This document shows, in pieces, positions 3-25,679 of a stretch of DNA of 34,260 nucleotides. A program made the position numbers and the translations under genes. This DNA comes from Thermosulfurimonas sp. GTDB taxonomy: Bacteria; Desulfobacterota; Thermodesulfobacteria; Thermodesulfobacteriales; Thermodesulfobacteriaceae. How positions within the stretch are numbered: position 1 is the first letter of the stretch; each line of letters starts with the position of its first letter. The stretch lies in contig WFPH01000150.1 of assembly GCA_015487645.1 (NCBI GenBank), forward strand, positions 1 to 34,260, given 5' to 3'. The notes below the pieces were generated by a model. That model was not told the DNA's origin. It was given only the letters and a program-made list of their open reading frames with translations, and made no database searches.

Positions 3-476
3 CCACTTACCCCGGAGGGGTTCATTCTTGAGGCCCATGTGAAGCTGCGGCCGGTGGAGGTGGCGGTGGACGGAGTGTATGTGTGCGGGCTGGCTCATGG
101 ACCTAAACCCTTGGAGGAGACCATGGCCCAGGCCCGGGCGGCGGCGGGCAAGGCCGCGGTGCCTCTGGCCAAGGGTTTTGTGGAGGTGCCTCCGATCGTG
201 TCGCGGGTGGAAGAGAAGAAATGTATCGGCTGTGGGATCTGCGCCGCCCTTTGCCCCTATGGCGCCATCGAGATGGTCAAGGTGGAAAAGCGTCGGAAGG
301 CCCGGGTGATCGCGGCGGCCTGCAAGGGCTGTGGGGTCTGTGGTTCGCACTGTCCGGTCTTCGCCATTACGCTCGGAGGCTTTACGGACGAGGCTATCCT
401 GGAACAGATCCGGGCCTTCGGGCTTGAGGAGGTGGAGGAAAAGACCGAAGCCCAAGAGGAAAAGGAAGCCGCTTAA
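3..476 (+). CDS. hdrA: HdrA-like protein (CoB-CoM heterodisulfide reductase subunit A family), C-terminal part, 5' end outside window
   Basis: Frame stays open to the window edge (PLTPEGFILEAHVKLRPVEVAVDGVYVCGLAHGPK), typical HdrA C-terminus; two 4Fe-4S motifs CIGCGICAALCP and CKGCGVCGSHCP. The track start at 39 is an internal GTG. Confidence 0.88.
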   Translation, partial: PLTPEGFILEAHVKLRPVEVAVDGVYVCGLAHGPKPLEETMAQARAAAGKAAVPLAKGFVEVPPIVSRVEEKKCIGCGICAALCPYGAIEMVKVEKRRKARVIAAACKGCGVCGSHCPVFAITLGGFTDEAILEQIRAFGLEEVEEKTEAQEEKEAA

Positions 477-487
477 GGAGGGCCGGT

Positions 488-1204
488 ATGGGATTTGAGC
501 CGAGAATTCTGAGCTTTCTTTGTAATTGGTGTTGCTACGCGGCGGCGGATTCGGCCGGAGTGGCCCGGTTCAGTTATCCGCCGAACAACCGGGTTATCCG
601 GATTATGTGCACGGGGCGTATGGACCCCCGTTTCGTGGTTGAAGCTTTCTATGTGGGCTCCGACGGGGTCTTCGTGGGCGGGTGACACCTCGGGGAATGC
701 CATTACCAGTCTGGTAATTACGAAGCTCTGGTTATGGCCGAGACGGTAAGGCGGATCCTCGATACGGTGGGGGTCCAGAGGGAGAGGTTTTATATTGACT
801 GGGCTTCGGCGGCCGAAGGGCCGAGGTTCGTGAAACTCCTTACGGATTTCACGGAGCGGATCCGGGAGCTCGGCCCCCTCGGGGAGAGGGAAGGGCTTTC
901 CCGGGATAGGCTACGTTTTCGGCTTGAAGCGGCGCGCAAACTCTGTCAAAATATGCAATTCCGAGCCCAGTACGGTAACCTGGCCAAGGAGATAAAGAAG
1001 CTTGGAGACTACAGCCCGGAAAACATTTCTCAATTGGTGGAGAAGAAACTGGTGCCGCAAATCCGTAAGAGGATCTTCGAGGCCGAGGTGAAAGAACTCC
1101 TGGCCCAGGGGCCGCAGAGTCTTGAGGCCCTCAAGGAGGCCACCGGCGCGAGCGAGGAGGAACTGGCCGGGATCCTCAATTCTCTGGAGAAGGGGAAAAA
1201 ATGA
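488..1204 (+). CDS. mvhD: MvhD-like hydrogenase/Hdr iron-sulfur subunit, selenoprotein with in-frame UGA at 683-685 (about 238 aa)
   Basis: FEPRILSFLCNWCCYAAADSAGVARFSYPPNNRVIRIMCTGRMDPRFVVEAF..GVFVGG[UGA]HLGECHYQSGNYEA; the UGA sits where MvhD has the conserved Cys of G-C-H-x-G-x-C-H. The frame continues to 1204 and includes track ORF 734-1204. Confidence 0.88.
683..718 (+). promoter_or_regulatory. Candidate bacterial SECIS element for mvhD (UGA plus hairpin)
   Basis: UGA 683-685, then 16 nt, then perfect 7-bp hairpin ATTACCA-GTC-TGGTAAT (702-718) with GUCU at the apex, resembling the E. coli fdhF SECIS loop. Confidence 0.7.
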
Positions 1205-1752
1205 TGCGTCTGGAACTGGCAAGAGAATGGCTGCCCGAGGTAGAGGGTTTGCCGGAAACTTATAGTCAGTGTTTCCGGTGCGGAGCCTGTTCGGGGATCT
1301 GTCCGGTGAAGAAGATCCGGAAAGACTTTGATCCCCGGGTGATCGTGCACGCCACCATTTTGGGACTTAAAGAGAAGCTCTTCGGCACACCCATCCTCTG
1401 GCTCTGTTCACAGTGTCGCAGCTGTGTGCCGGTTTGTCCCATGGAGGTCAAGCCTGCGGAGGTCATCCAGGCCCTGCGGAATTATGCCTTCAAGTCCGGT
1501 CTGGCCAATGAAGAGACCCTTTTTGAGGCCGGGAGGCTGGCCCGGGTTAATCCCGGAAAGTGCATCGTTTGCCTTACCTGTGTGCGGGTTTGCCCATTCG
1601 GAGCTCCGAGCATCAAGGAAGAGGGCTATGCGGTGATTGATCCGGCCAAGTGCCACGCTTGCGGGATCTGCGTGCAGGAATGTCCGGCCCGGGCCATCGA
1701 ACTCAAGCCGGCGGCCGAATTCGAGACCTTGAAGGTGGGGGTGGCGGTCTGA
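1201..1752 (+). CDS. HdrC-like 4Fe-4S protein with extra C-terminal 2x[4Fe-4S] ferredoxin domain
   Basis: CFRCGACSGICP and CSQCRSCVPVCP (HdrC type), then CIVCLTCVRVCP and CHACGICVQECP; ATG overlaps upstream stop. Confidence 0.8.
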   Translation: MMRLELAREWLPEVEGLPETYSQCFRCGACSGICPVKKIRKDFDPRVIVHATILGLKEKLFGTPILWLCSQCRSCVPVCPMEVKPAEVIQALRNYAFKSGLANEETLFEAGRLARVNPGKCIVCLTCVRVCPFGAPSIKEEGYAVIDPAKCHACGICVQECPARAIELKPAAEFETLKVGVAV

Positions 1753-2148: not shown

Positions 2149-2820
2149 ATGATAATTGCAGAAAGGAGACCGATTCCTAAAGTCCTCAAGGCCATAGAGC
2201 CTTACGAAAAGATCCTGGTTCTGGGGTGTCGGGGGTGTGTGGCGGTGTGTTCCGCGGGCGGCGACCGGGAGGTGGAGACCATGGCGGCGGCCCTGCGGTT
2301 GGCGCGCAAGCTCTCCGGCCGACCGCTTGAGACCGGCGAGGCCACCTTTATTCGGCAGTGCGATCCGGAATATCTGGCCCCCCTGAAGGAGATGGTTCGG
2401 GACTACGAAGCGGTGGTCTCCATGGCCTGCGGGGTGGGAGTCAACCTCATAGCGGATCTCTTTCCGGAGATCAGGGTCTATCCCGGAGTGGATACCACCT
2501 TTTACGGGGCCAATCCGGCCCTGGGGGAGTGGCAGGAGAAATGCCGGGGGTGTGGGGACTGTATTCTGGATGTCACCGGGGGGCTTTGTCCGATCGCCCG
2601 GTGTGCCAAAAATCTTTTGAACGGCCCCTGCGGGGGTTCGCAGGGCGGGCGTTGTGAGATTCGGCGGGAGGTCCCCTGTGTGTGGCATCAGATTTACGAG
2701 AGGCTTTCCGCCCGGGGGGAACTGGATCGTCTCATGAACTTCTTCCCGGCCAAGGACTGGCGTCCGGCCGGACACGGTGGTCCCCGGGAAAGAATAAGAG
2801 AAGATTTGAAGATGGGATAA
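2149..2820 (+). CDS. metV: MetV-like methylenetetrahydrofolate reductase C-terminal/zinc-finger family protein
   Basis: Cys-rich CRGCVAVC, CRGCGDCILDVTGGLCPIARCAKNLLNGPCGGSQGGRCEI, typical of MetV; directly precedes metF. Confidence 0.85.
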   Translation: MIIAERRPIPKVLKAIEPYEKILVLGCRGCVAVCSAGGDREVETMAAALRLARKLSGRPLETGEATFIRQCDPEYLAPLKEMVRDYEAVVSMACGVGVNLIADLFPEIRVYPGVDTTFYGANPALGEWQEKCRGCGDCILDVTGGLCPIARCAKNLLNGPCGGSQGGRCEIRREVPCVWHQIYERLSARGELDRLMNFFPAKDWRPAGHGGPRERIREDLKMG

Positions 2821-2839: not shown

Positions 2840-5290
2840 GTGGAACCGAGAAGCCATCTGCATCGGGTCCTTTCCGAGGGGCACTTTGCGGTTACAGCGG
2901 AGATCGGGCCTCCCAAGAGCGCCGATGCCGAAGTGGTAAGGCGCAAGGCCCGAATCCTCAAAGGTTATGTGGACGCGGCCAACATTACCGACTGTCAGAC
3001 GGCCATTGTGAGAATGTCCTCTATCGCCTCGGCGGTCCTGGTGATGGCCGAAGGGGTGGAACCCGTCATTCAGATGACCTGCCGGGACCGCAACCGGATC
3101 GGTATGCAGGCCGATCTCTTAGGGGCGGCGGCCCTGGGGATACGGAATCTTCTCTGTATAACCGGCGATCACCAGAAGTTCGGTAACCACCCGGAGGCCA
3201 AAGGGGTCTTCGATCTGGACTCCATTCAACTCCTGGCCATGGTGCGAGGGATGCGGGACGAGGGAAAGTTCATGTGCGGGGAGGAGCTCACCGGGGCCCG
3301 GCCGGAATTTTTCCTGGGGGCCGCGGCCAACCCCTTTGCCGACCCCTTCGAATTCCGGGTGAAGAGACTCGAGAAAAAGATTCGGGCGGGGGCGGAATTC
3401 ATACAGACCCAGATCGTCTATAATGTGGAGCGTTTCCGTAAGTTCATGGAGATGGCCCGGGATCTTGGTCTCACGGAAAAGGCTTACATCCTGGCGGGTA
3501 TTACTCCCCCCAAGTCCTTCGGGATGGCCCGCTACATGAAATATTTTGTGCCCGGTCTCGACGTCCCGGATGAGATCCTCAAGCGCCTGAAAGAGGCCAA
3601 GGACAAACGCGAAGAGGGGATCAACATTGCGGTGGAGATCATTCAGCAGGTGCGGGAGATCCCCGGGGTGGCCGGGGTGCACATCATGGCCATCGAGTGG
3701 GAAGAGGCCGTGCCCGAGATCGTGAAGCGGGCGGGGCTTCATCCGCGTCCGCTCGAGGCCGAGATCCGTTCGCCCATCGCGGTGGAAGTGGAGAAGCCCG
3801 TGGAGCGCGTGGAGGTCATGGCTCCGCCGACCGAAGAGGTGTCGGAGGAAGTTCCGCCGAAGCTTGAGATTCCGGTCGAGGCGGTCAAAGAGGTCTTCTC
3901 CACGGTACGTTCGAGTATGGAAGCCCTGCGTGAGGGAATCAATCTCCTTCACGACAGCCTGGCCCGGCTCGAGAAAGCCCTTCTCGGCGGAGAGGTAGTG
4001 CCGACAGAAGTACCGGAGGTTCCGCGCCTTGAGGTCAAGGTAGAAGAGAAACCGGTGGCGGAAGAAAAGCCCCCGGTAGAGGAAAAACCTCCGGTTGAGG
4101 AGAAGCCTCCAGTTGAGGAAGCCAAACCTCCGGCGGAAGAGGCTAAGCCTGAAGTCAAGGAAGAGAAACCTGAGCCTGAAGAGAAGAAAGAGGAAAAGGT
4201 CGAAGCCCAGGTGGAAGAGAAACCGGAGGAAAAACCGGAGGAGGTCAAACCAGAAGAGAAGCCTGCGCCGGCGCCCCCCGCGGAGGGGTTGGAGCTGGGA
4301 GCCTTCTCCGGGGAATATCGTCCGCTTTCCGAGCGGGCGGCGGGGCTTCCGGAAGACCTCTACAGGGAGCCCGGGACGGCTTTTATCCGCGAGGTGGAGA
4401 TCGGAAAAGGGGAGAAGGCCTTCAAGGTGGGCGGTACGAACGTTCTGCCCTTCCATCTTTTTGAAGGCGAGATGCGGCACGAGCCGCGGATCGCCATGGA
4501 AGTTCTGGATGTAAAACCGGAGGGCTGGCCGGAAAGCCTCACCAAGTACTTCGCAGATGTCCTGGGGGATCCGGCGGCCTGGGCCAAAAAGTGTGTGGAG
4601 ACTTACGGGGCCGAGGCCGTGTGTGTCTATCTCATGGGTACCGATCCCAACTATCTCAACCTGGATGCCAAACACGCCCGGGAAGTGGTGGAGAAGGTGG
4701 CGGAGGCGGTGGATGTACCTCTGATCGTCTGGGGGGCGGGGCACGCCGAAAAGGATGTGGAGGTTCTGCGCGAGGTGGCCGAAGTCCTGGGCGATCGCGG
4801 GGCAGTGATCGGGCCGGTGGAAGAGGCCAATCACCGGACCATCGGGGCTACGGCCATGGGGTACGGACTTCCGGTGGTGGCCTCAAGCCCCATCGATGTG
4901 AACCTGGCCAAGCAGCTCAATATTCTCCTTGAAAACGTCGGGGTAGCGCTGGACAAGATCCTCATGGACCCCTCCATCGGGGCTCTGGGGTATGGTCTGG
5001 AGTACACCTATTCGGTCATGGAGAGGATAAGGCTTGCGGCCCTCTACGCGCAGGATGACAAGCTTCAGGTGCCTTTCATCTGTAACGTGGGCCGCGAGGT
5101 CTGGAAGACCAAGGAGGTGGGACTTCCCAGCGACGACCTGCTGGGCGACCAGGAGGTCCGTGGGGTTCTCATGGAAGCCATTACCTCTGTGGCCCTGGCT
5201 CTGGCCGGGGGAGATCTTTTCATTATGCGTCATCCCAAAGCAATTGAGCTGACAAAGACGATAATTAGAGGGCTTATGCAACAAAATTAA
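2840..5290 (+). CDS. Fusion protein: N-terminal methylenetetrahydrofolate reductase (MetF), acidic Pro/Glu-rich linker, C-terminal corrinoid iron-sulfur protein small subunit (AcsD/CdhD)
   Basis: Single uninterrupted 816-codon ORF (GTG start, SD aggaggg). N-terminal about 300 aa: MetF (AEIGPPKSADAEVVRRKA, LLCITGDHQ, QTQIVYNVERF, ILAGITPPKS). C-terminal about 320 aa: AcsD (FKVGGTNVLPFHLFEGEMRHEPRIAMEVLD, YLMGTDPNYLN, MDPSIGALGYGLEYTYSVMERIR, PFICNVGREVWKTKE). Confidence 0.9.
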   Translation: MEPRSHLHRVLSEGHFAVTAEIGPPKSADAEVVRRKARILKGYVDAANITDCQTAIVRMSSIASAVLVMAEGVEPVIQMTCRDRNRIGMQADLLGAAALGIRNLLCITGDHQKFGNHPEAKGVFDLDSIQLLAMVRGMRDEGKFMCGEELTGARPEFFLGAAANPFADPFEFRVKRLEKKIRAGAEFIQTQIVYNVERFRKFMEMARDLGLTEKAYILAGITPPKSFGMARYMKYFVPGLDVPDEILKRLKEAKDKREEGINIAVEIIQQVREIPGVAGVHIMAIEWEEAVPEIVKRAGLHPRPLEAEIRSPIAVEVEKPVERVEVMAPPTEEVSEEVPPKLEIPVEAVKEVFSTVRSSMEALREGINLLHDSLARLEKALLGGEVVPTEVPEVPRLEVKVEEKPVAEEKPPVEEKPPVEEKPPVEEAKPPAEEAKPEVKEEKPEPEEKKEEKVEAQVEEKPEEKPEEVKPEEKPAPAPPAEGLELGAFSGEYRPLSERAAGLPEDLYREPGTAFIREVEIGKGEKAFKVGGTNVLPFHLFEGEMRHEPRIAMEVLDVKPEGWPESLTKYFADVLGDPAAWAKKCVETYGAEAVCVYLMGTDPNYLNLDAKHAREVVEKVAEAVDVPLIVWGAGHAEKDVEVLREVAEVLGDRGAVIGPVEEANHRTIGATAMGYGLPVVASSPIDVNLAKQLNILLENVGVALDKILMDPSIGALGYGLEYTYSVMERIRLAALYAQDDKLQVPFICNVGREVWKTKEVGLPSDDLLGDQEVRGVLMEAITSVALALAGGDLFIMRHPKAIELTKTIIRGLMQQN
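4040..4262 (+). repeat. Degenerate in-frame tandem repeat coding (V/A)EEKPP(V)-type units in the MetF-AcsD linker
   Basis: Translation EEKPVAEEKPPVEEKPPVEEKPPVEEAKPPAEEAKPEVKEEKPEPEEKKEEKVEAQVEEKPEEKPEEVKPEEKP; about 18-bp DNA unit (gtagaggaaaaacctccg and variants). Confidence 0.85.
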
Positions 5291-5305: not shown

Positions 5306-7528
5306 ATGTCGAAGATCATTGCCACCAAGGCCATCCGTGGGGCTCACAAGATTGTGGAGCGGGCCCAGGAGAAATATGAAGAGGCGGTCAAGAAATTCGG
5401 AAAGGACAAGGAGGTATCCTTTCCGAACACCGCCTACTATCTTCCTATTATCTACGCCATGCTGGGATATCCGGTGAAGAAGCTGGGGGATTGCGGAGAG
5501 GTGCTGGAAGAGGCCCGGAGGTTGCTTCCGCCGATCCCGGAGGAGGAGCTCTGGACGCCGTATCTCGGGCCGGCCCTGGATGCCGGCATGGCCACCTTTT
5601 TTGCGGAGGAGGTCATTGAGGCCATCCGTTATCTGGAGGATCCAAACTTTTACACCAAGACCGAGGAGCCGGTAAACGGCAACCTCTGGCTCGGGGCGGC
5701 CGACGACGTGATCTTCCGTAAGCGCGGAGTGGAGTTCGTGGACGGTACGGCCCCCGGGTTTGCGGCCATTTTAGGAGCCCCGCCGGACAAGGAAACGGCG
5801 GCCAGGATCGCCCAAGAGCTCCAGGAAAAGAACCTCTACGTCTTCATGCACCATCACACCGATGGGCGCTATATGCCGGAGATGCTTCGGGAGGCCGGAG
5901 TCCAGCTCGGCTGGCCCACTCGTCTCATCCCCTTCGGGCCGGATTACACCTCGGTGGTCTTCGCCATCGGGTTCGCCTGCCGGGTGGCCATGGCTTTCGG
6001 TGGCATCAAGCCCGGTGATTACATGGGCAACCTTCTTTACAACAAGGACCGGACCTTCGCCTTTGCCATTACCTTCGGGCCGATCTCGGATGAGTGGTAC
6101 GCCAATGGAGCCGGGGCCATCAACTGGGGCTTTCCGGTGATCTCGGACTGGGATGAGCCGGAGATCAAGCCTTACGGGATTTGCACTTACGAACACGTGG
6201 TCTCCAAAGTGCCGCATGACGAAATTGTGGACCGGGCTATCGAGGTTCGGGGACTCAAGGTCACCACGGTCAAACTGGATATCCCGGTGGCCTACGCCCC
6301 GGCCTTCGAGGGCGAGCGGGTGCGAAAAGACGATCTCTATCTGGAGTGCGGAGGAGGACGGACACCGGCGGTGGAGCTGCTGCTCTCAAAGCCTCTTGAG
6401 GAGGTGGAGGACGGGAAGATCGAGGTTGTGGGCCCGGAGATCAACGAGGTAGAAAAGCTCGGTCTCCAGGGGCCACCTTACCGGTTGCCCTTCGCGGTGG
6501 TGGTGGAGGTGGCCGGAGCCAACATGCAGGAGGACTTCGAGGCCATCCTGGAACGTCAGTTCCATCACCTCATCAACTACGCCCAGGGCATCATGCACGT
6601 GGGCCAGCGGAACATCATGTGGCTGCGGATCAGCAAGGCTGCGGTGGAGAAAGGGTTCCTCTTCAAACATATCGGTGAAATCCTTTACGCCAAGATGCGT
6701 CAGGAATTCGGGGCCATCGTGGACAAGTGTCAGGTGACCATCTACACCGAGGAAGAGAAGGTCAAGGAAATTCTTGAGCTGGCCAAGGAGGTCTACGCCA
6801 AGCGGGATGCCCGTATCGCAGGTATGACCGACGAGAGCGTGGAGGTCTATTATTCCTGCACCTTGTGTCAGAGCTTTGCGCCCAGCCACGTGTGCGTTAT
6901 CACCCCCGAGCGGATCGGGATGTGCGGGGCCTACAACTGGCTGGATGGCAAAGCCTGCTACGAACTCAATCCGGCGGGGCCCAATCAGCCCATCGAGAAG
7001 GGCGAGCTTATCGATGAACGCCTGGGACAGTTTTCCGGGATCAACGAGTTTGTGAAGAAGGCCAGCCGGGGCAAAGTGGAGCGGGTGAGCCTTTACAGCA
7101 TCCTGGTGGACCCCATGACGGCCTGCGGATGCTTTGAGTGCATCGCGGCCGTTCTGCCCTCGGTCAGCGGGATCATGATCGTGAACCGGGATTACCTCGG
7201 GATGACGCCCACCGGGATGAAGTTTTCCACCATGGCCGGTATGGTGGGTGGAGGACAGGTTACGCCCGGTTTCATGGGGGTCTCCAAGAACTATATCACC
7301 TCCAGGAAGTTCCTGCTCGCGGAGGGCGGACTCAAACGGGTGGTCTGGATGCCCAAGATGCTCAAGGAGGAGCTCAAGGACAGGCTCAAGGCCCGGGCCG
7401 AGGAGCTGGGTATTCCGGATCTCATCGATAAGATCGCGGACGAGACGGTGGCCACCACCGAGCAGGAAGTCAAGGAATGGCTTGAGAAGGTCAAACATCC
7501 GGTGCTTGAGATGGAACCTCTGATGTAA
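5306..7528 (+). CDS. acsB: Acetyl-CoA synthase (CODH/ACS alpha subunit, bacterial type)
   Basis: 740 aa; A-cluster region CTLCQSFAPSHVC, GMCGAYNWLDGKACYELNPAGPNQP, DPMTACGCFECI; N-terminal domain of the bacterial type present. Confidence 0.96.
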   Translation: MSKIIATKAIRGAHKIVERAQEKYEEAVKKFGKDKEVSFPNTAYYLPIIYAMLGYPVKKLGDCGEVLEEARRLLPPIPEEELWTPYLGPALDAGMATFFAEEVIEAIRYLEDPNFYTKTEEPVNGNLWLGAADDVIFRKRGVEFVDGTAPGFAAILGAPPDKETAARIAQELQEKNLYVFMHHHTDGRYMPEMLREAGVQLGWPTRLIPFGPDYTSVVFAIGFACRVAMAFGGIKPGDYMGNLLYNKDRTFAFAITFGPISDEWYANGAGAINWGFPVISDWDEPEIKPYGICTYEHVVSKVPHDEIVDRAIEVRGLKVTTVKLDIPVAYAPAFEGERVRKDDLYLECGGGRTPAVELLLSKPLEEVEDGKIEVVGPEINEVEKLGLQGPPYRLPFAVVVEVAGANMQEDFEAILERQFHHLINYAQGIMHVGQRNIMWLRISKAAVEKGFLFKHIGEILYAKMRQEFGAIVDKCQVTIYTEEEKVKEILELAKEVYAKRDARIAGMTDESVEVYYSCTLCQSFAPSHVCVITPERIGMCGAYNWLDGKACYELNPAGPNQPIEKGELIDERLGQFSGINEFVKKASRGKVERVSLYSILVDPMTACGCFECIAAVLPSVSGIMIVNRDYLGMTPTGMKFSTMAGMVGGGQVTPGFMGVSKNYITSRKFLLAEGGLKRVVWMPKMLKEELKDRLKARAEELGIPDLIDKIADETVATTEQEVKEWLEKVKHPVLEMEPLM

Positions 7529-7540
7529 GGGAGGAGGGAA

Positions 7541-8893
7541 ATGGGACTCACCGGTATTCAGATCATGCAGAAGTTGCCTAAGACCAACTGCGGGGATTGC
7601 GGTTTCCCCACCTGTCTGGCCTTTGCCATGAAGGTAGCTGCCGGGCAGGCCGAGATCGACAAGTGTCCGCACGTGGATCCGGCGGTCAAGGAGGAGATCG
7701 CCGAGGCCTCGGCGCCGCCTATCCGGACGGTGGTTCTTGGAAGCGGAGAAAACCAGGTCAAACTCGGAGGGGAAACTGTCCTTTTCCGGCACGAAAAGCG
7801 TTTCGAGAACCCCACGGCTATCGGTGTGAGGATAGCCACAGACATGTCTGCCGAGGAGATCGAACGGCGCCTTGAGGCCTTTCGTAAGTTCCGCTGGGAA
7901 CGGGTAGGGGTGGAGCTAAAGGCCGACATGGTGGCCGTAGAGGACACCGGAGCCGGCAAAGAGGCCTTCTGTAACTTGGTCAAGAAGGTGCGGGAGGAAG
8001 CCCCGGAGGCCGTCCTGGTTCTCATGAGCGGAGACCGGGAGATACTTTCTTCGGCCTGCGATCTCTGCGGGGAACACCGGCCTCTACTTTACGCGGCCAC
8101 GCTCGACAATTTCAAAGAGATGGGAGAACTGGCCAAAGAAAAGAAGGCCGCGCTGGCGGTGAAAGGCGAGAGTCTGGCGGAGACGGCCCGGATTTCTGAA
8201 GAGCTCATCAAGATGGGGCTCAAAGATCTGGTGCTTGATACCGGAGCCAAAAGCGTGCGTGAGCTTTATGAGGACCAGGTGATCGTGCGCCGGGCGGCCA
8301 TCAAGAAGCGTTTCAAACCCTTCGGGTTCCCCACGATCACTTTTCCTTACCGCTACACGGACAACTACCTGGCGGAGGCCATCCTGACCTCGGTCCTCAT
8401 CCCGAAGTATGCCGGAGCGGTTATACTTTCTGATTTCCGGGGGGATGTCCTCTTCCCGCTTTTCGTGGAACGGATGAACATCTTTACTGATCCGCAGAAG
8501 CCTCTGGTGGTAGAGGAGGGGATCTATCCCATCAATGGTCCGGACGAAAATTCTCCGGTGCTGGTAACCTGCAATTTTGCTCTGACTTACTTCATCGTTT
8601 CGGGAGAAGTGGAAGGCAGCCGGGTACCCTCCTGGCTTCTCATCAAGGATACCGAAGGACTTTCGGTGCTCACAGCCTGGGCCGCGGGCAAGTTTGGGGC
8701 GGACACCATCGCGGAGTTCGTTAAGAAATGCGGTATAGCGGACAAGGTCAAGCACCGTAAGCTGGTTATCCCGGGCTATCTGGCCTCTATCAAAGGCGAG
8801 CTTGAGGACGAGCTTCCGGACTGGGAAATTATTATCGGGCCGCGTGAGGCCAGTGGTCTTCCGGCCTTCCTCAAGGAATGGAAAGCGGCCTAA
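7541..8893 (+). CDS. acsC: Corrinoid iron-sulfur protein large subunit (AcsC/CdhE)
   Basis: N-terminal 4Fe-4S motif CGDCGFPTCLAFAMKVAAGQAEIDKC; TIM-barrel and C-terminal corrinoid domain; follows acsB. Confidence 0.95.
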   Translation: MGLTGIQIMQKLPKTNCGDCGFPTCLAFAMKVAAGQAEIDKCPHVDPAVKEEIAEASAPPIRTVVLGSGENQVKLGGETVLFRHEKRFENPTAIGVRIATDMSAEEIERRLEAFRKFRWERVGVELKADMVAVEDTGAGKEAFCNLVKKVREEAPEAVLVLMSGDREILSSACDLCGEHRPLLYAATLDNFKEMGELAKEKKAALAVKGESLAETARISEELIKMGLKDLVLDTGAKSVRELYEDQVIVRRAAIKKRFKPFGFPTITFPYRYTDNYLAEAILTSVLIPKYAGAVILSDFRGDVLFPLFVERMNIFTDPQKPLVVEEGIYPINGPDENSPVLVTCNFALTYFIVSGEVEGSRVPSWLLIKDTEGLSVLTAWAAGKFGADTIAEFVKKCGIADKVKHRKLVIPGYLASIKGELEDELPDWEIIIGPREASGLPAFLKEWKAA

Positions 8894-8941: not shown

Positions 8942-9838
8942 ATGAGTCAGCAGGTTATCTGTATTGCCGAGAGTATTAACATCATGTCTAAGCGCATCGG
9001 TCCGGCCATGAAGGAAAGGAATCCCGAACCCATCAAGGAGATGGCCAAGGAAGAGGCTGAGCGGGGCGCGGATTATCTGGATCTTAATATTGGGCCGGCC
9101 AAGAAAGATGGTCCGGAGCTGGCGGCCTGGATCGTAAAGGTGGTGGAAGAGACGGTAGATGTGCCTATTTCGCTCGACACCACTAACCCCGAGGCCATGA
9201 CCGCGGGTCTCAAGGCTTCGAAGAATCCGGCCCGATGCCTCATGAACTCCATTTCCGCCCAGCCCGAGCGGATGGAAAAGCTCATCCCGGTGGCCGCGGA
9301 GCTCGGATGCGATGTGGTGGCTCTCCTTTGGGGGCCCGAGGGAATGCCGCGGGACGCTAACGAGCGGGCGGCGCTCGCGGTGGATCTCATCATGAAGCTC
9401 AACGAGGCCGGTATCCCCAACGAGAAGATCTGGGTGGATCCTATCGCTACCCCTATCACTCTGGGAGCCGAGCAGATCATGGCAGGTCTGGAGTTCCTGG
9501 CCATGCTTCAGGACATCGCTCCCGGGGCCAAGAGTACGGTAGGGCTTTCCAATGTCTCCAACGGGGTAGCCACTCACTTGAGACCTTACCTCAACCGCGT
9601 CTATCTCATGATGCTCATGAAGTACAACATCTATTCGGCCATTGTGGACGTTTATGACCAGGAGCTGGTAGAGATCGCCAAAGGGAAGCATCCGGATTGG
9701 GTGAAGCTGGTTCACGACATCATGGACGGGGATGAACCGGATCCCAAAAGCCTTTCTCCGAAGGAGCTCGAAATCTACAAAACGGCCAGGGTTTTACTCG
9801 GGAAGACCATCTTCTCGGAGTCCTGGCTTGAACTGTAG
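8942..9838 (+). CDS. acsE: 5-methyltetrahydrofolate:corrinoid iron-sulfur protein methyltransferase
   Basis: ADYLDLNIGPAKKDGPELAAWIVKVVEETVDVPISLDTTNPEAMTAGL: pterin-binding methyltransferase; cluster context. Confidence 0.94.
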   Translation: MSQQVICIAESINIMSKRIGPAMKERNPEPIKEMAKEEAERGADYLDLNIGPAKKDGPELAAWIVKVVEETVDVPISLDTTNPEAMTAGLKASKNPARCLMNSISAQPERMEKLIPVAAELGCDVVALLWGPEGMPRDANERAALAVDLIMKLNEAGIPNEKIWVDPIATPITLGAEQIMAGLEFLAMLQDIAPGAKSTVGLSNVSNGVATHLRPYLNRVYLMMLMKYNIYSAIVDVYDQELVEIAKGKHPDWVKLVHDIMDGDEPDPKSLSPKELEIYKTARVLLGKTIFSESWLEL

Positions 9839-9908: not shown

Positions 9909-12900
9909 ATGAAGATTTGGCTGGACGGACAGGAGATCGAGGTCCAGGCGGGGGAGACCCTTTTAGAGGTAGCTAAAAGGGTAGGGGTCCACGTTCCGAC
10001 CCTTTGCTATCTACCGAGGGCTTCGGAATCACCGGTGCCCTGCGGACTGTGTGTGGTAGAGGTGGAGGGCCGTGGTCTAGTTCGAGCCTGTGCCACCCCG
10101 GTGGAAGACGGTCTCAGGGTAAACACAATCTCAGAGGCCGTAAAAGAAGCTCGTCGCAAGAAACTCGAGGCTCTGGTAGCCAACCACTACGGGGACTGCA
10201 AGGCCCCCTGCGGTCAGCCCTGTCCCGGGGGGCTCAACATTCAGGGTTACATCGCCTTCATTGCCCGGGGAGAGTACGCCGCGGCCCTGAGCCTGATTAA
10301 GGAAAGGCTCCCTCTTCCGGCCACCGTGGGCCGGGTGTGCCCCCGTTTCTGTGAACCCCGATGTCGCCGCGCCCTGGTAGATGCCCCCATCGCCATCAAT
10401 GATCTCAAGCGTTTTGTGGCCGATTGGGGTTTGAAACATGGTGAGCGGCGTCCGGAAATAGCGCCCCCGACCGGAAAGAAGGTGGCGGTGGTGGGTGCCG
10501 GACCAGCCGGCCTCTCCGCGGCCTACTACTTGAGGCTCCGTGGACATGGAGTGACCATTTTTGAGGCCCGGGAAGAACCGGGTGGTATGCCTCGCTGGGC
10601 TATACCGGATTTCAAGCTCCCCAAAGAGGTCCTACGCCAGGAAATCAAGGGCCTGCTTTCTCTGGGGATAGAGCTCAAAACGGGCCAGGCCTGGGGACGA
10701 GACTTCACCCTCAAAGATCTTTTCGATCAGGGGTATGAGGCCATCTTTCTGGCTATTGGGGCTTCCCGTGATCGGGGCCACGACGTCCCGGGAGAAGATA
10801 AAGCCCTCTCCGGGCTCGAGCTCCTCTACCGGCTAAATGCCGGGGAGGATCTCCCGGTAAGTAAAGGGCAGAAGGTCTTGGTCATGGGGGGAGGCTACAC
10901 CGCGGTGGATGTTTCCCGGGCTCTGGTGCGTCTGGGAGCCCGGGTGACCCTGGTCTACCCCCGTTCCCGGGTGGAAATGCCCGCTCCTCAGAGAGAGATA
11001 AAGGCCGCCGAGGCCGAAGGGGTGGAACTCTTTCTGATGGCCCTCCCGCTCGAGATCGAAAAAACGGACTCCGCCTATCGGGTACGTATGGCTCGGACGG
11101 TCCTCTCTGAACCTGATCCCAAGACTAAAGCTCGGAAGGTTGTTCCACTTGAAGGCACCGAAAAGGAATACGAATTCGATCTGGTGGTGAGGGCCTGGGG
11201 AGAAGAACCGGACTCCGCCTTCAAGTCCTTTGGAGAACTTGAGGCCCAGCTGGCCACCACTCCTACCGGTCAACTTAAAGTCCAGAGCGGAAGCCAGGCC
11301 ACCAGTCTTCCGGGGGTCTTTGCCGGTGGAGACTTTGTTTCCGGTCCCAAAACCGTGATCCAGGCGGTGGCTTCCGGCCGAAGGGCGGCCGAGGCTATCC
11401 ACGCCTATCTCCTCGGGATCAAAAAACCTAAGGGTATTACCACCGTAAAATACGACTTCAATCGGGGACGGCGTCCGGAAGAGATGGACCTGGAGTTCTA
11501 CGAACAGTTTCCATCCGCTCAGCGGGAGACTCCGGCAGAAAGGCCTCCGGAGGAAAGGATAGGGGACTTCGGGGAGGTCGTGGCCGGATTCACCGAGGAG
11601 GCGGCCCGGAGGGAGGCCGAAAGATGTCTAAAATGTGGATGTCTGGGGTTCCACAAGTGCACCTTCAGGGAACTTTTGATCGCGGAAAATGTGGCCGCTA
11701 AAGGTCGGAAGAGGGCCAAGTACCGGCTGGACACGGACCATCCCTTCATCGAAGTGGACTCCAACAAATGTGTGGGCTGTTTTCGGTGTCTCAGAAGCTG
11801 TCAACACGAGGGCTTAGAGCTCAAGATCTATGCCCAAGGAACCAGCGAGGAGGAGATTCATTTCAGTTTTACAGAGAACTGTGTAGCCTGTGGAGCCTGC
11901 GTAGATGCCTGTCCTACAGGGGCCCTTACCCGTAAAGACTCCACGGTTCCCTTTGCCAAGGAGGAGGTCCGCGAGGTTCGCACGGTCTGTGTGTACTGCG
12001 GCACAGGCTGCAATATCCTGGCGCGGGTGAAGAACGGAAGCATCTTAGAGGTCACCGGAGCCGAGGTGCCCCCCAATTACGGAGACCTCTGTGTCAAGGG
12101 GCGCTTCGGGTATACTTTTTACCGGCATCCGGAAAGACTCAAGCGTCCGCTCTTAAGGAATGATCGGGGGCAACCCTTCCGGGAGGTTTCCTGGGAAGAG
12201 GCCTTTGACTTTGTAGCCGAAAGGTTGCAGGCTATTAAAGACAAATACGGGCCAGAGGCCATCGGGGTCCTCTGCTCCGCCAGGACCACCAACGAAGAGA
12301 CCTATGTCGCGCAGAAGTTTGCCCGGGCGGTCCTAGGAACGCACAATGTAGATAATCCCGCACGGGTCTGACACGCTCCCTCGGTCGCGGGTCTCGCGGC
12401 CACCTTCGGATCCGGAGCGGCTACGGGGACCTTCGACGAGATTCTGAGGACCGAGGTCCTCATTCTCTGGGGAGCCAACCCCACCGAGGCCCATCCTATC
12501 GTGGGGTACAAGATCAAAAGGGCCTTGGAGAAAGGTCTTAAGCTGGTGGTGGTGGATCCCCGGAAGACGGAGCTTGCGGCGCAGGCCGATCTCTGGCTTC
12601 CTATCCGTCCCGGTACCAATGTAGCGTTAGCCAATGGCATTGCCCATGTCATCATTCGCGATGGTCTTTACCGGGAAGATTTCATCCGGGAGAGAACGGA
12701 GAATTTCGACGGGTACGCCCGCTATATCCTTACCGAATGGCCTTTGGAAAGGGTCGAACGGCTTACGGGCATCCGCCGAGAATATATCGAGCAGGTAGCC
12801 CGACTTTACGCCCGGGCGAAGAGGGCTCTCATCCTCTGGGGACTCGGGGTCGCGGAACATCGGAGCGGAAGCTACGGGGTAATGGCCCTAGCCAATCTGG

Positions 12901-14009
12901 CCCTTCTTTGCGGGCACGTTGGGCGTCCGGGTACCGGGGCCATGCCTCTCCGGGGGCAGAATAACGTCCAGGGAGCCTGCGACATGGGGGCCCTCCCTTA
13001 TGTGCTGCCGGGCTATCAGAAGCCTGAAGATCCTCTGGTACGCAAAAAGTTCGAAGAGATCTGGGGGCGGCCGCTACCCGAAAAACCCGGTCTTACCGAG
13101 CCCCGAATGTACCAGGAAGCCCTGGCCGGCCACCTCAAGGCCCTTTACATTGTGGGTTACGATGTGGCCCTGACGCACGCCAACTTAGAAAATGTGCATC
13201 GGGCTCTTAGCAGCTTAGATCTCCTGGTGGTGCATGACATCTTTTTCCCTAAGACGGGAGAGTTTGCCCATGTGGTTTTTCCGTCGGCCTGTCTTTTCGA
13301 GAAGGACGGCACCACCGACAACGGGGAACGTCGAGTCCAACGGATAAGAAAACTGGTGGAGCCTCCCGAGGGGGTGCTTACGGATTGGCAGATTATTGCG
13401 GAAATATCTCGACGTCTAGGATACGAGATGAACTATGCCCGAGCGGAGGATATCTTTGAGGAGATGCGCCGGGTGATGCCCAGCTTTGCCGGCCTCACCT
13501 ACGGAAGACTGGAAGAAAAAGGTCTTTGCTGGCCCGTCCCGGAGGAGACGCACCCCGGCACAGAGATCATGTTCCAGGAGAAGTTCGCCACCTCTTCCGG
13601 AAAGGCCTGCTTTGCGCTCCCCAAATACTGGCCAGCGGAAGAGGAACCAGATGGTAACTATCCTTTCCTTTTGATTACCGGCCGACGGCTTCCGCATTAC
13701 AATTGCGGTTCCATGACCCGAAGGGTGGCGGGGATTATGGATCTACTTCCGGAAGAACTGGTGGAGATCCATCCCAAAGACGCCCGCCGGTTGAAACTCC
13801 GGGAACGGGACCGTATTCGGATCGTCAGCCGGAGAGGGACTATTTCCGCCAGGGTCCACATTTCCTCGCGGGTAAATCCCGGGATCCTTTTCATGGATTT
13901 CCATTTTGAGGAGCCGCTTACCAATATGGTTACCAGTCCGGGGCTGGACGTGAAGGTGCATACTCCGGAATATAAAGTGGCCGCTGTTAGGATAGAAAAG
14001 GTAGATTAA
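9909..14009 (+). CDS. Selenocysteine formate dehydrogenase fused to NuoG-like 2Fe-2S, GltD-like NAD(P)H/FAD and ferredoxin domains (1366 aa with UGA at 12369-12371)
   Basis: N-term 2Fe-2S (CYLPRASESPVPCGLCVVEVEGRGLVRAC), GltD-like (GDCKAPCGQPCPGGLNIQGYI, VAVVGAGPAGLSAAYYLRLRGHGVTIFEA, VLVMGGGYTAVDVSRAL), 4Fe-4S (CVGCFRCLRSC, CVACGACVDACP), FdhF N-term (CVYCGTGCNI..GDLCVKGRFGY), then VDNPARV[UGA]HAPSVAGLAATFGSGA and the Mo-bisPGD domain to 14009 in the same frame. Confidence 0.93.
12369..12401 (+). promoter_or_regulatory. SECIS element for formate dehydrogenase UGA recoding
   Basis: UGA 12369-12371, 11 nt, then GGTCGCG-GGTCT-CGCGGCC (12383-12401): perfect 7-bp stem (one G-U) with GGUCU loop. 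Same spacing and loop as the remembered E. coli fdhF SECIS. Confidence 0.88.
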
Positions 14010-23747: not shown

Positions 23748-24141
23748 ACACGGGGCGGACATCGGGGTCCGGGGTTATGGGCACACCCTAGAGGAGGCCT
23801 TTGAGAATGGGGCCCGGGCCCTCTTTGCCCTGATGGTGGAGAACTTCGAGGAGATCATCCCGGAGAGGGAAATTTCGCTCGAGGTCTCGGCGGAGCTCCT
23901 CGATGAGCTTTTTGTGGTCTGGCTCAACCAGCTTCTGACCGTTTCGGATCTAGAGAACATGGTCTTTCGGGACTTCAAGGTGAACCTCTCCGGGGAGGAG
24001 CTCCGGGCCAAGGCCCTCGGAGAACCCCTCGATCCAGCCAAACACCAGCTGGGCGTAGAAGTCAAGGGGGCCACTTTTACCCTGGCTAAAGTGGAAAGAC
24101 AAGGCGAGTTGTGGGTAGCTCAGTGTGTGGTAGACGTATGA
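23719..24141 (+). CDS. Archease (SHS2 domain)
   Basis: YETFEHGADIGVRGYGHTLEEAFENGARALFALMV, LLDELFVVWLNQLLTVSDLENMVF, HQLGVEVKGATFTLAKVERQGELWVAQCVVDV. Confidence 0.92.
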   Translation: MNFIPYETFEHGADIGVRGYGHTLEEAFENGARALFALMVENFEEIIPEREISLEVSAELLDELFVVWLNQLLTVSDLENMVFRDFKVNLSGEELRAKALGEPLDPAKHQLGVEVKGATFTLAKVERQGELWVAQCVVDV

Positions 24142-25679
24142 AACCCGCGGTCGAGATCCTGGAGGTTTCATTACCCCGCCCTAGCCTTTCGGATCAGCGC
24201 TCGGATGAGAGGCGTCTGCGGGAGGCCCTTCAGGAAAGACTCGGAGAGGCCCCGGAGATTCCGCTTTCCGTGCTGAAAGATCTCCCCGAACGCCTCAGGG
24301 CTTCGGATTTCTCGGTTCGAGTCGTACTCGGAAGGAAGGAAAAAGGCCCGGAGGTCCTGGAGGTGAGATCTCCCGAGGACGGAAGACCGATCCTAGGGCT
24401 GGGTATTGATCTCGGAAGTACCGGGGTGGCTCTTTACCTGGTGGATTTTCTCTCCCGAAAAGTGGTGCGGAGGACCACCTTTCGCAACCCCCAGATCCCT
24501 TACGGAGAGGACATTCTTACCCGACTGCACTTCGCCAACCGCCCGGAGGGTTTGACCGAACTACAGGAGAAAACCCTCCGTGGCCTTAAGGAAGAGATCC
24601 GGAAGCTGGCCGGGGAAGATACCGAGCACCTTTACTACTACGCTTTTTGCGGGAACACCACCATGACCCATTTCTTCCTGGGGCTACCCACCCGCTGGCT
24701 TTACCGGGAACCCTACATTCCCGCGGCGAACTGGGTGGAAGTTCTCAAGCTCCGAGAGTTGGGCCTTCCGGGGCACTCCGAGGGGCTGATCTTCGTGTTC
24801 CCGTCCGGAGGGAGCTATTTCGGAGGGGATCTCATTTCCGGACTCCTCTCGGTGGGGCTTCACCGGAGCACACAGCTCAGCCTTTTCGTGGATGTGGGGA
24901 CCAACGCCGAGATCGTCCTGGGAAACAGGGAGTTTCTTCTGGCCTGTGCGGGGGCGGCCGGGCCGGCCCTGGAAGGTGGAGTGCTTTCCTGCGGTATACA
25001 GGCCCGAGAAGGTGCCATCGAAAGCGTGAGGATCCGGGACGGCCGAGTGGAAGTTCGAACCATAGGCGGAGTCAAGCCTCTGGGGATCTGCGGTTCCGGC
25101 ACTATTGAGCTTCTGGCCGAGCTCTTTCTCTCTGGTCTGGTCAATCCCCAAGGGATCTTTCAGCCCGAAAAGCTTCCCGAGCGCTTCCGGGAGATCAAGG
25201 GAGAGAAGGCCTTTATCTTGGCCTTTGAAGACGAGACCGCCCATGGCCGTCCCATTTACGTCACCCAGGGGGAGATCAAGAACCTCATCCGCTCGAAAGG
25301 GGCCATGTACACCATGCTCACCGTGATCTGTGAAAGCCTTGGTGTGAGATTCGAGGACCTGGAGAGGATCTATGTGGCCGGAAGTTTTGGTAGTCACATT
25401 GACCCCGAAGCGGCCATCACCATCGGGATGCTTCCGGATCTCCCCCGGGAAAAATTCCAGTCCGTGGGCAACGCCGCGGGGGATGGTACCGTGAAGTTCC
25501 TCCTTGAGGGCAGTTTCGAAGAGGTCCGGGAGATCGTCTCCCGGCTAACATACCTTGAGATGAACGTGGAAAACCGCTTCATGCAGCTTCTCACCGGGGC
25601 CCTCTTTCTGCCTCACACCAATCTGGAATTGTTTCCGAGCGTAAAAGAAAAAATTAAGGATACGGTATGCCTAAAGTAG
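24138..25679 (+). CDS. RACo-like (AcsV/DUF4445, ASKHA-type) corrinoid activation protein lacking the N-terminal 2Fe-2S domain
   Basis: ILGLGIDLGSTGVALYLVDFLSRKVV, FCGNTTMTHFFLGL, LFVDVGTNAEIVLGN, ACAGAAGPALEGG, GICGSGTIELLAELF, IYVAGSFGSHIDPEAAITIGMLPDLP; ATG 24138 overlaps archease stop (ATGA). No Cys motif N-terminally. Confidence 0.88.
   Translation: MKPAVEILEVSLPRPSLSDQRSDERRLREALQERLGEAPEIPLSVLKDLPERLRASDFSVRVVLGRKEKGPEVLEVRSPEDGRPILGLGIDLGSTGVALYLVDFLSRKVVRRTTFRNPQIPYGEDILTRLHFANRPEGLTELQEKTLRGLKEEIRKLAGEDTEHLYYYAFCGNTTMTHFFLGLPTRWLYREPYIPAANWVEVLKLRELGLPGHSEGLIFVFPSGGSYFGGDLISGLLSVGLHRSTQLSLFVDVGTNAEIVLGNREFLLACAGAAGPALEGGVLSCGIQAREGAIESVRIRDGRVEVRTIGGVKPLGICGSGTIELLAELFLSGLVNPQGIFQPEKLPERFREIKGEKAFILAFEDETAHGRPIYVTQGEIKNLIRSKGAMYTMLTVICESLGVRFEDLERIYVAGSFGSHIDPEAAITIGMLPDLPREKFQSVGNAAGDGTVKFLLEGSFEEVREIVSRLTYLEMNVENRFMQLLTGALFLPHTNLELFPSVKEKIKDTVCLK

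Follow-up and report, generated by a model that had tools for sequence, protein, structure and literature searches.

In a Thermosulfurimonas genome, methylene-THF reductase (MetF) and AcsD, the small subunit of the corrinoid iron-sulfur protein (CFeSP), are encoded as a single polypeptide. The two complete domains occupy one uninterrupted reading frame of 816 codons (positions 2840-5290, forward strand), with a GTG start and no internal stops, within the 34,260-nucleotide stretch of DNA that we analyzed, referred to here as the window. The frame begins 19 bp after metV and ends 15 bp before acsB, and a long disordered arm joins its two halves. A large Desulfobacterota lineage has this architecture in common. 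A first-pass annotation of the window had proposed a one-chain MetF–AcsD fusion, and we find that both the continuity of the chain and the two domain identities hold, the latter by agreement of Pfam, NCBIfam and Foldseek matches. The features of the locus are collected in Table 1.

Table 1. The MetF–AcsD fusion and its neighboring genes in the window
Feature	Position	Strand	Remarks
HdrA 3' end, MvhD, double-4Fe4S protein	3..1752	+	Pfam; upstream of MetV; HdrA named from position and Fe-S domains
MetV partner (DUF5981/PF12225)	2149..2820	+	E 1.3e-36
MetF (methylene-THF reductase) domain	2840..3754	+	Residues 1-305; GTG start with strong SD-like sequence AGAGGAGGG upstream
Pro/Glu/Lys/Val-rich disordered arm	3755..4333	+	Residues 306-498, ~190 residues
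Amphipathic helix within arm	3884..3979	+	Residues 349-380, EVFSTVRSSMEALREGINLLHDSLARLEKALL
(E)EKPPV-type tandem repeat	4064..4120	+	18-bp unit, 3.2 copies (TRF)
Junction motif	4316..4363	+	Residues 493-508, YRPLSERAAGLPEDLY, directly N-terminal to AcsD
AcsD (CFeSP small subunit) domain plus stop	4370..5290	+	Residues 511-816
AcsB (acetyl-CoA synthase)	5306..7528	+	NF040764 equivalog over cut-off
AcsC (CFeSP large subunit, Fe-S and corrinoid)	7541..8893	+	FeS and CdhD Pfam; NF003195 over cut-off
AcsE (methyl-THF:CFeSP methyltransferase)	8942..9838	+	Pterin_bind Pfam; NF005719/NF040758 below cut-off

Domain identity and gene neighborhood

The N-terminal domain is a full-length MTHFR. Residues 7-299 match the Pfam MTHFR profile over positions 2-287 of 287 (E 9e-42), and sequence and fold searches of the PDB match the domain to bacterial MetF (1v93 and 8eac), with Foldseek recognizing the MTHFR TIM barrel at an E-value of about 1e-14. 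Residues E21, D110 and Q191 are invariant in 24 fusions and fall where the PDB alignments show conserved MTHFR segments; we take them to be the equivalents of the catalytic Glu28, Asp120 and Gln183 of the Escherichia coli enzyme. Two complete genomes (G028 and G065) encode no MTHFR other than the fused MetF, which makes it probable that the fused enzyme is catalytically active. All 17 fused or re-split genomes that were checked carry a gene for MetV (PF12225), the partner of MetF.

The C-terminal domain has the full-length AcsD fold. It is matched by Pfam CdhD at residues 518-759 (E 1.6e-43) and by AcsD-type NCBIfam models spanning residues 513-815. WLP_AcsD aligns over profile positions 10-312 of 312 (E 1e-87), yet scores below its model cut-off, and NF003376 matches over its cut-off. 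A phmmer search with the domain gave an E-value of 2.7e-82, and PDB sequence and fold searches returned the CFeSP small subunits 2h9a_B, 4djd_D and 9fzy_E, the first with a Foldseek E-value of 2.4e-31 and a TMt of 0.91. The likeness to these solved chains covers the whole TIM barrel, and the AcsC, AcsE and AcsB genes lie nearby; the solved chains are bare, at ~310 aa, whereas the fusion adds MetF and the arm at the N-terminus.

The order HdrA, MvhD, Fe-S protein, MetV, MetF–AcsD, AcsB, AcsC and AcsE recurs among relatives. In loci of the Desulfobulbales type, the Hdr, MvhD and MetV genes are not beside the fusion, and MetV is encoded elsewhere in the genomes checked. Of the MetFV-HdrABC-MvhD set, the genes individually assigned as neighbors of MetF are those for MetV, HdrA and MvhD, and the genes upstream of metV are a probable electron-input module for MetF/MetV, judging from their domains. 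In Moorella-type MetFV-HdrABC-MvhD complexes, MetF is described as a free protein. The fused MetF resembles this MetFV type in being a complete MTHFR with MetV directly upstream and HdrA, MvhD and Fe-S genes further upstream, and differs from it in that only the fusion has AcsD attached.

The same genome encodes a second MTHFR (G000:C125:6176-7618), a 531-aa frame with MTHFR and DUF5981, that is, MetF and MetV in one chain, and ~510-530-aa proteins resembling it are found in many relatives. Such one-chain MetF-MetV proteins, as well as Hcy-methyltransferase/MTHFR fusions, likewise place MTHFR within a multidomain chain, but they have other partner domains, a distant MTHFR (31% identity between the C125 protein and the fused MetF) and no long disordered arm shown.

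Two further loci of the window were noted. At 9909-14009, a NuoG/NfnB-like module is joined to formate dehydrogenase; the in-frame TGA at 12369-12371 (NPARV-TGA-HAPSV) probably encodes selenocysteine, and several relatives likewise appear to have the halves as separate ORFs. At 24111-25679 lies a RACo-like CFeSP activator whose ORF begins at the linker domain, without the N-terminal 2Fe-2S domain.

Distribution and origin of the fusion

The two-domain order is widespread in the lineage and not unique to the source organism. Within a phylum sample of 247 genomes, of which 164 bear AcsD, the in-frame fusion is present in 20 of the 164 and a re-split form in one (G100). It is found as one frame in the single-contig genomes G028, G065, G128, G101, G195 and G204. 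Fusions also make up 36 of the 80 best named GTDB loci, with records from Thermosulfurimonas, Thermodesulfatator, Caldimicrobium, Desulfurivibrio, Desulfocapsa and Desulfobulbaceae among them; the named fused loci include Desulfurivibrio sp. AMeS2 and the isolate and type strain T. dismutans S95 (NZ_LWLG01000005). MetF is separate in the Chloroflexi, Planctomycetes, Actinomycetes and Gemmatimonadetes loci among the same 80.

In the AcsD tree, 48 fused and three split rows form one clade with an SH-aLRT of 100, and all other separate AcsD sequences fall outside it. Two of the split rows are sisters (L036 and L099); the third (L086) was ruled out as a split fusion, its apparent break being a scaffold gap of Ns. 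A quick MetF tree placed the fused rows as paraphyletic under a midpoint root. A MetF tree with the fused rows held together is 32 lnL better, with a p-AU of 0.88, and a single clade is therefore not rejected. Since the fused AcsD is monophyletic and a single MetF clade is compatible with the data, the fusion likely arose once. Multiple independent fusions are not needed, given the single AcsD clade and an AU test that favors one MetF clade.

Candidatus Desulfaltia bathyphila (L108) and a second locus (L105) have an identical gene order in which metF and acsD are separate and no arm is present. On this comparison, their unfused pair likely represents the parent state, and the fusion would be derived most simply from adjacent metF and acsD genes.

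The arm, its helix and the re-split lineage

The first-pass annotation had described a flexible acidic tether of 170-180 residues containing a short helix and an EEKPPV-type repeat. The tether itself stands and is slightly longer than first thought; its composition is rich in Pro, Glu and Lys, the repeat is recovered by TRF, and the quoted helix is located at about residues 350-380. AlphaFold predicts the two domains mostly with confidence and gives most of the arm (308-493) a pLDDT below 50, with low-confidence helices at 346-367 and 372-382 and the rest of the arm unordered.

Against close relatives (T. dismutans and a Thermodesulfatator MAG), indels in the arm are in-frame only. Where Ks could be estimated, Ka/Ks is about 0.08-0.12 for the arm and 0.03-0.05 for the domains, rough values since Ks is near saturation. 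As judged from sequence comparison, the arm is translated and under purifying selection. Across fusions the arm spans 104 to 454 aa, and conservation of the repeat is poor even among close relatives. TPR-like repeats are present inside the MetF–AcsD arms of seven loci (L042, L043, L044, L045, L040, L039 and L035), and the window arm is without them. Given this fourfold variation in length and the gain of TPR repeats by some arms, no fixed arm geometry is required.

Both main fused lineages have a single conserved helix in the arm. In nine members, a profile of the Thermodesulfobacteria-type helix reaches 49-67 bits, and it has no match in the short Thermodesulfobacterium arms of G028 and G065; the profile of the second lineage scores 35-67 bits in nearly all of its members, and shuffled arms give about 4 bits or less with either. 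The hydrophobic moment of the window helix is above that of shuffles, as is true for most arm helices of both lineages. Homology between the helices of the two lineages was not demonstrated by hhalign (37%) or by HMM cross-hits (3.3 bits or less). The junction motif YRPLSERAxGIPEDLY is common to both lineages (hhalign probability 90%, E 1.4e-6), and R499 is invariant across the fusions compared.

Natural fission sites were seen in Thermodesulfobacterium (L036:8400-8404 and L099:6921-6970). In this re-split pair, MetF closes with a stop that is followed by a new SD and ATG, and the arm and helix stay on AcsD. Values of pN between the two are 0.126 for the helix, where synonymous sites are saturated, 0.317 for the remaining arm and 0.097 for AcsD. 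Since the helix stays conserved while the remaining arm drifts, it is selected even without a covalent link to MetF, and the existence of the fission lineage shows that the tether is dispensable. The retention of arm and helix on the re-split AcsD points to an assembly or docking element and not to a strictly needed covalent swinging arm.

Arms on AcsD are also found outside this clade. In two genomes, AcsD is fused at its C-terminus to Ni-CODH of the Prismane family (L157:3816-7184:+ in G026 and L158:1925-5374:- in G102). The connecting arm is Pro/Ala/Lys-rich and includes a helix-like segment, which is amphipathic above shuffles in G026 only; a further AcsD copy in G102 carries a free tail. 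These proteins resemble MetF–AcsD in linking AcsD to a pathway enzyme via an arm with a helix-like segment, but the junction is C-terminal, the partner is Ni-CODH, the lineages are different and the event is independent. Three further AcsD frames of about 530 aa (L068, L071 and L072) have a ~200-aa C-terminal low-complexity tail, which in L068 and L071 is Ala/Pro-rich with a conserved terminal segment (DG-YILRQL-RWRLRG-GILR). The CODH fusions and the long C-terminal tails together suggest that AcsD may be a favored anchor for arms.

Function and significance

We lean toward a bifunctional protein whose arm tethers MetF to the CFeSP/AcsE/ACS machinery in a 1:1 ratio, with the helix docking or self-associating. 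MetF, together with MetV and the probable Hdr/MvhD module, would be permanently tethered to AcsD through the disordered, charged arm, which would set the MetF:CFeSP ratio at 1:1 and keep MetF beside AcsE, AcsC/D and AcsB, so that CH3-THF would be made at its place of use. Through its conserved amphipathic helix, the flexible arm would gain a defined point of attachment, serving for docking or self-association. Physical coupling of MetF to the CFeSP/ACS machinery, as the first-pass annotation had suggested, is plausible and agrees with the conservation of the operon, and the fusion may channel CH3-THF. The covalent linkage would be helpful, not essential, and the arm itself would not carry the methyl group.

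The comparison with swinging linkers that accompanied the original proposal is weak. In the established pathway, AcsE moves the methyl from CH3-THF to the corrinoid and must still act between MetF and CFeSP; domain profile searches of the arm found no lipoyl, biotinyl or ACP carrier domain; and the re-split lineage keeps arm and helix on AcsD. The swinging arms of 2-oxoacid dehydrogenases are likewise Ala/Pro/Glu-rich flexible linkers with a small helical element, but they serve E2 lipoyl domains, which the MetF–AcsD arm lacks, and the resemblance is one of analogy only.

An unlikely but credible alternative is that the fusion serves mainly for expression or assembly, the stop between two co-transcribed neighbors having been lost; equal dosage and co-folding would be useful, the arm would only insulate the domains and no metabolite would be handed over. 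The adjacency of metF and acsD in the same order in unfused relatives, the high variability of arm length and sequence and the tolerance of re-splitting all agree with this. However, the arm helix and junction motif are conserved beyond the needs of a passive spacer, and the helix is still conserved after re-splitting. That same persistence of the helix on AcsD favors a different account, in which the helix-bearing AcsD arm is the functional element by which CFeSP docks to MetV/Hdr, CODH/ACS or another CFeSP, and the link to MetF is secondary. The long Ala/Pro-rich AcsD tails in other Desulfobacterota and the AcsD-arm-CODH fusions of two lineages, one with a clearly amphipathic arm helix, point the same way, but the MetF link is kept in nearly all clade members and no homology was demonstrated between the N-terminal and C-terminal arms of AcsD; we regard this account as rather improbable. 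An artefact of assembly or annotation, or two proteins made from one ORF through an internal start, is extremely improbable: the source assembly is fragmented (1.63 Mb in 217 contigs, the window being contig C150), which made an artefact worth testing, and a few relatives have SD-like strings before an in-frame GTG in the E/K-rich arm, but an assembly artefact is ruled out by the single-contig genomes and the T. dismutans isolate, the arm evolves in frame, and a separate AcsD was rejected because no SD-supported internal start was found ahead of AcsD in the window or in L112.

Beyond the bifunctional, tethered enzyme that we prefer, a broader scheme is conceivable though doubtful. AcsD might be a scaffold hub in Desulfobacterota, its helix-bearing disordered arms repeatedly recruiting MetF at the N-terminus and CODH at the C-terminus into a metabolon of the methyl and carbonyl branches, with a real handover of CH3-THF from MetF to AcsE/CFeSP.

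The enzymes are already known; what appears new here is their clade-wide fusion, of which we found no description in the searchable open-access literature. In the genome paper on T. dismutans, TDIS_1006 is given simply as MetF (PMC4911364); this gene is the probable counterpart of the fusion, since it is positioned before AcsE (TDIS_1009) and FDH (TDIS_1010). A 2026 survey of the Wood-Ljungdahl pathway in Desulfobacterota mentions neither the fusion nor MetF in its main text (PMC12827605), and other genome papers on member organisms are silent on the fusion. For annotation, this means that the genome papers of members give only MetF or omit the fusion.

The fusion could mark an autotrophic group of Thermodesulfobacteria, Dissulfuribacteria and Desulfobulbia, which seems to overlap 'clade B' of that survey (PMC12827605). 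A large group of autotrophic sulfur bacteria has retained it. The Wood-Ljungdahl pathway is regarded as one of the most ancient ways of fixing carbon, and the fused, unfused parent-like and re-split forms make it testable in cultured species whether its methyl branch is a physical complex.
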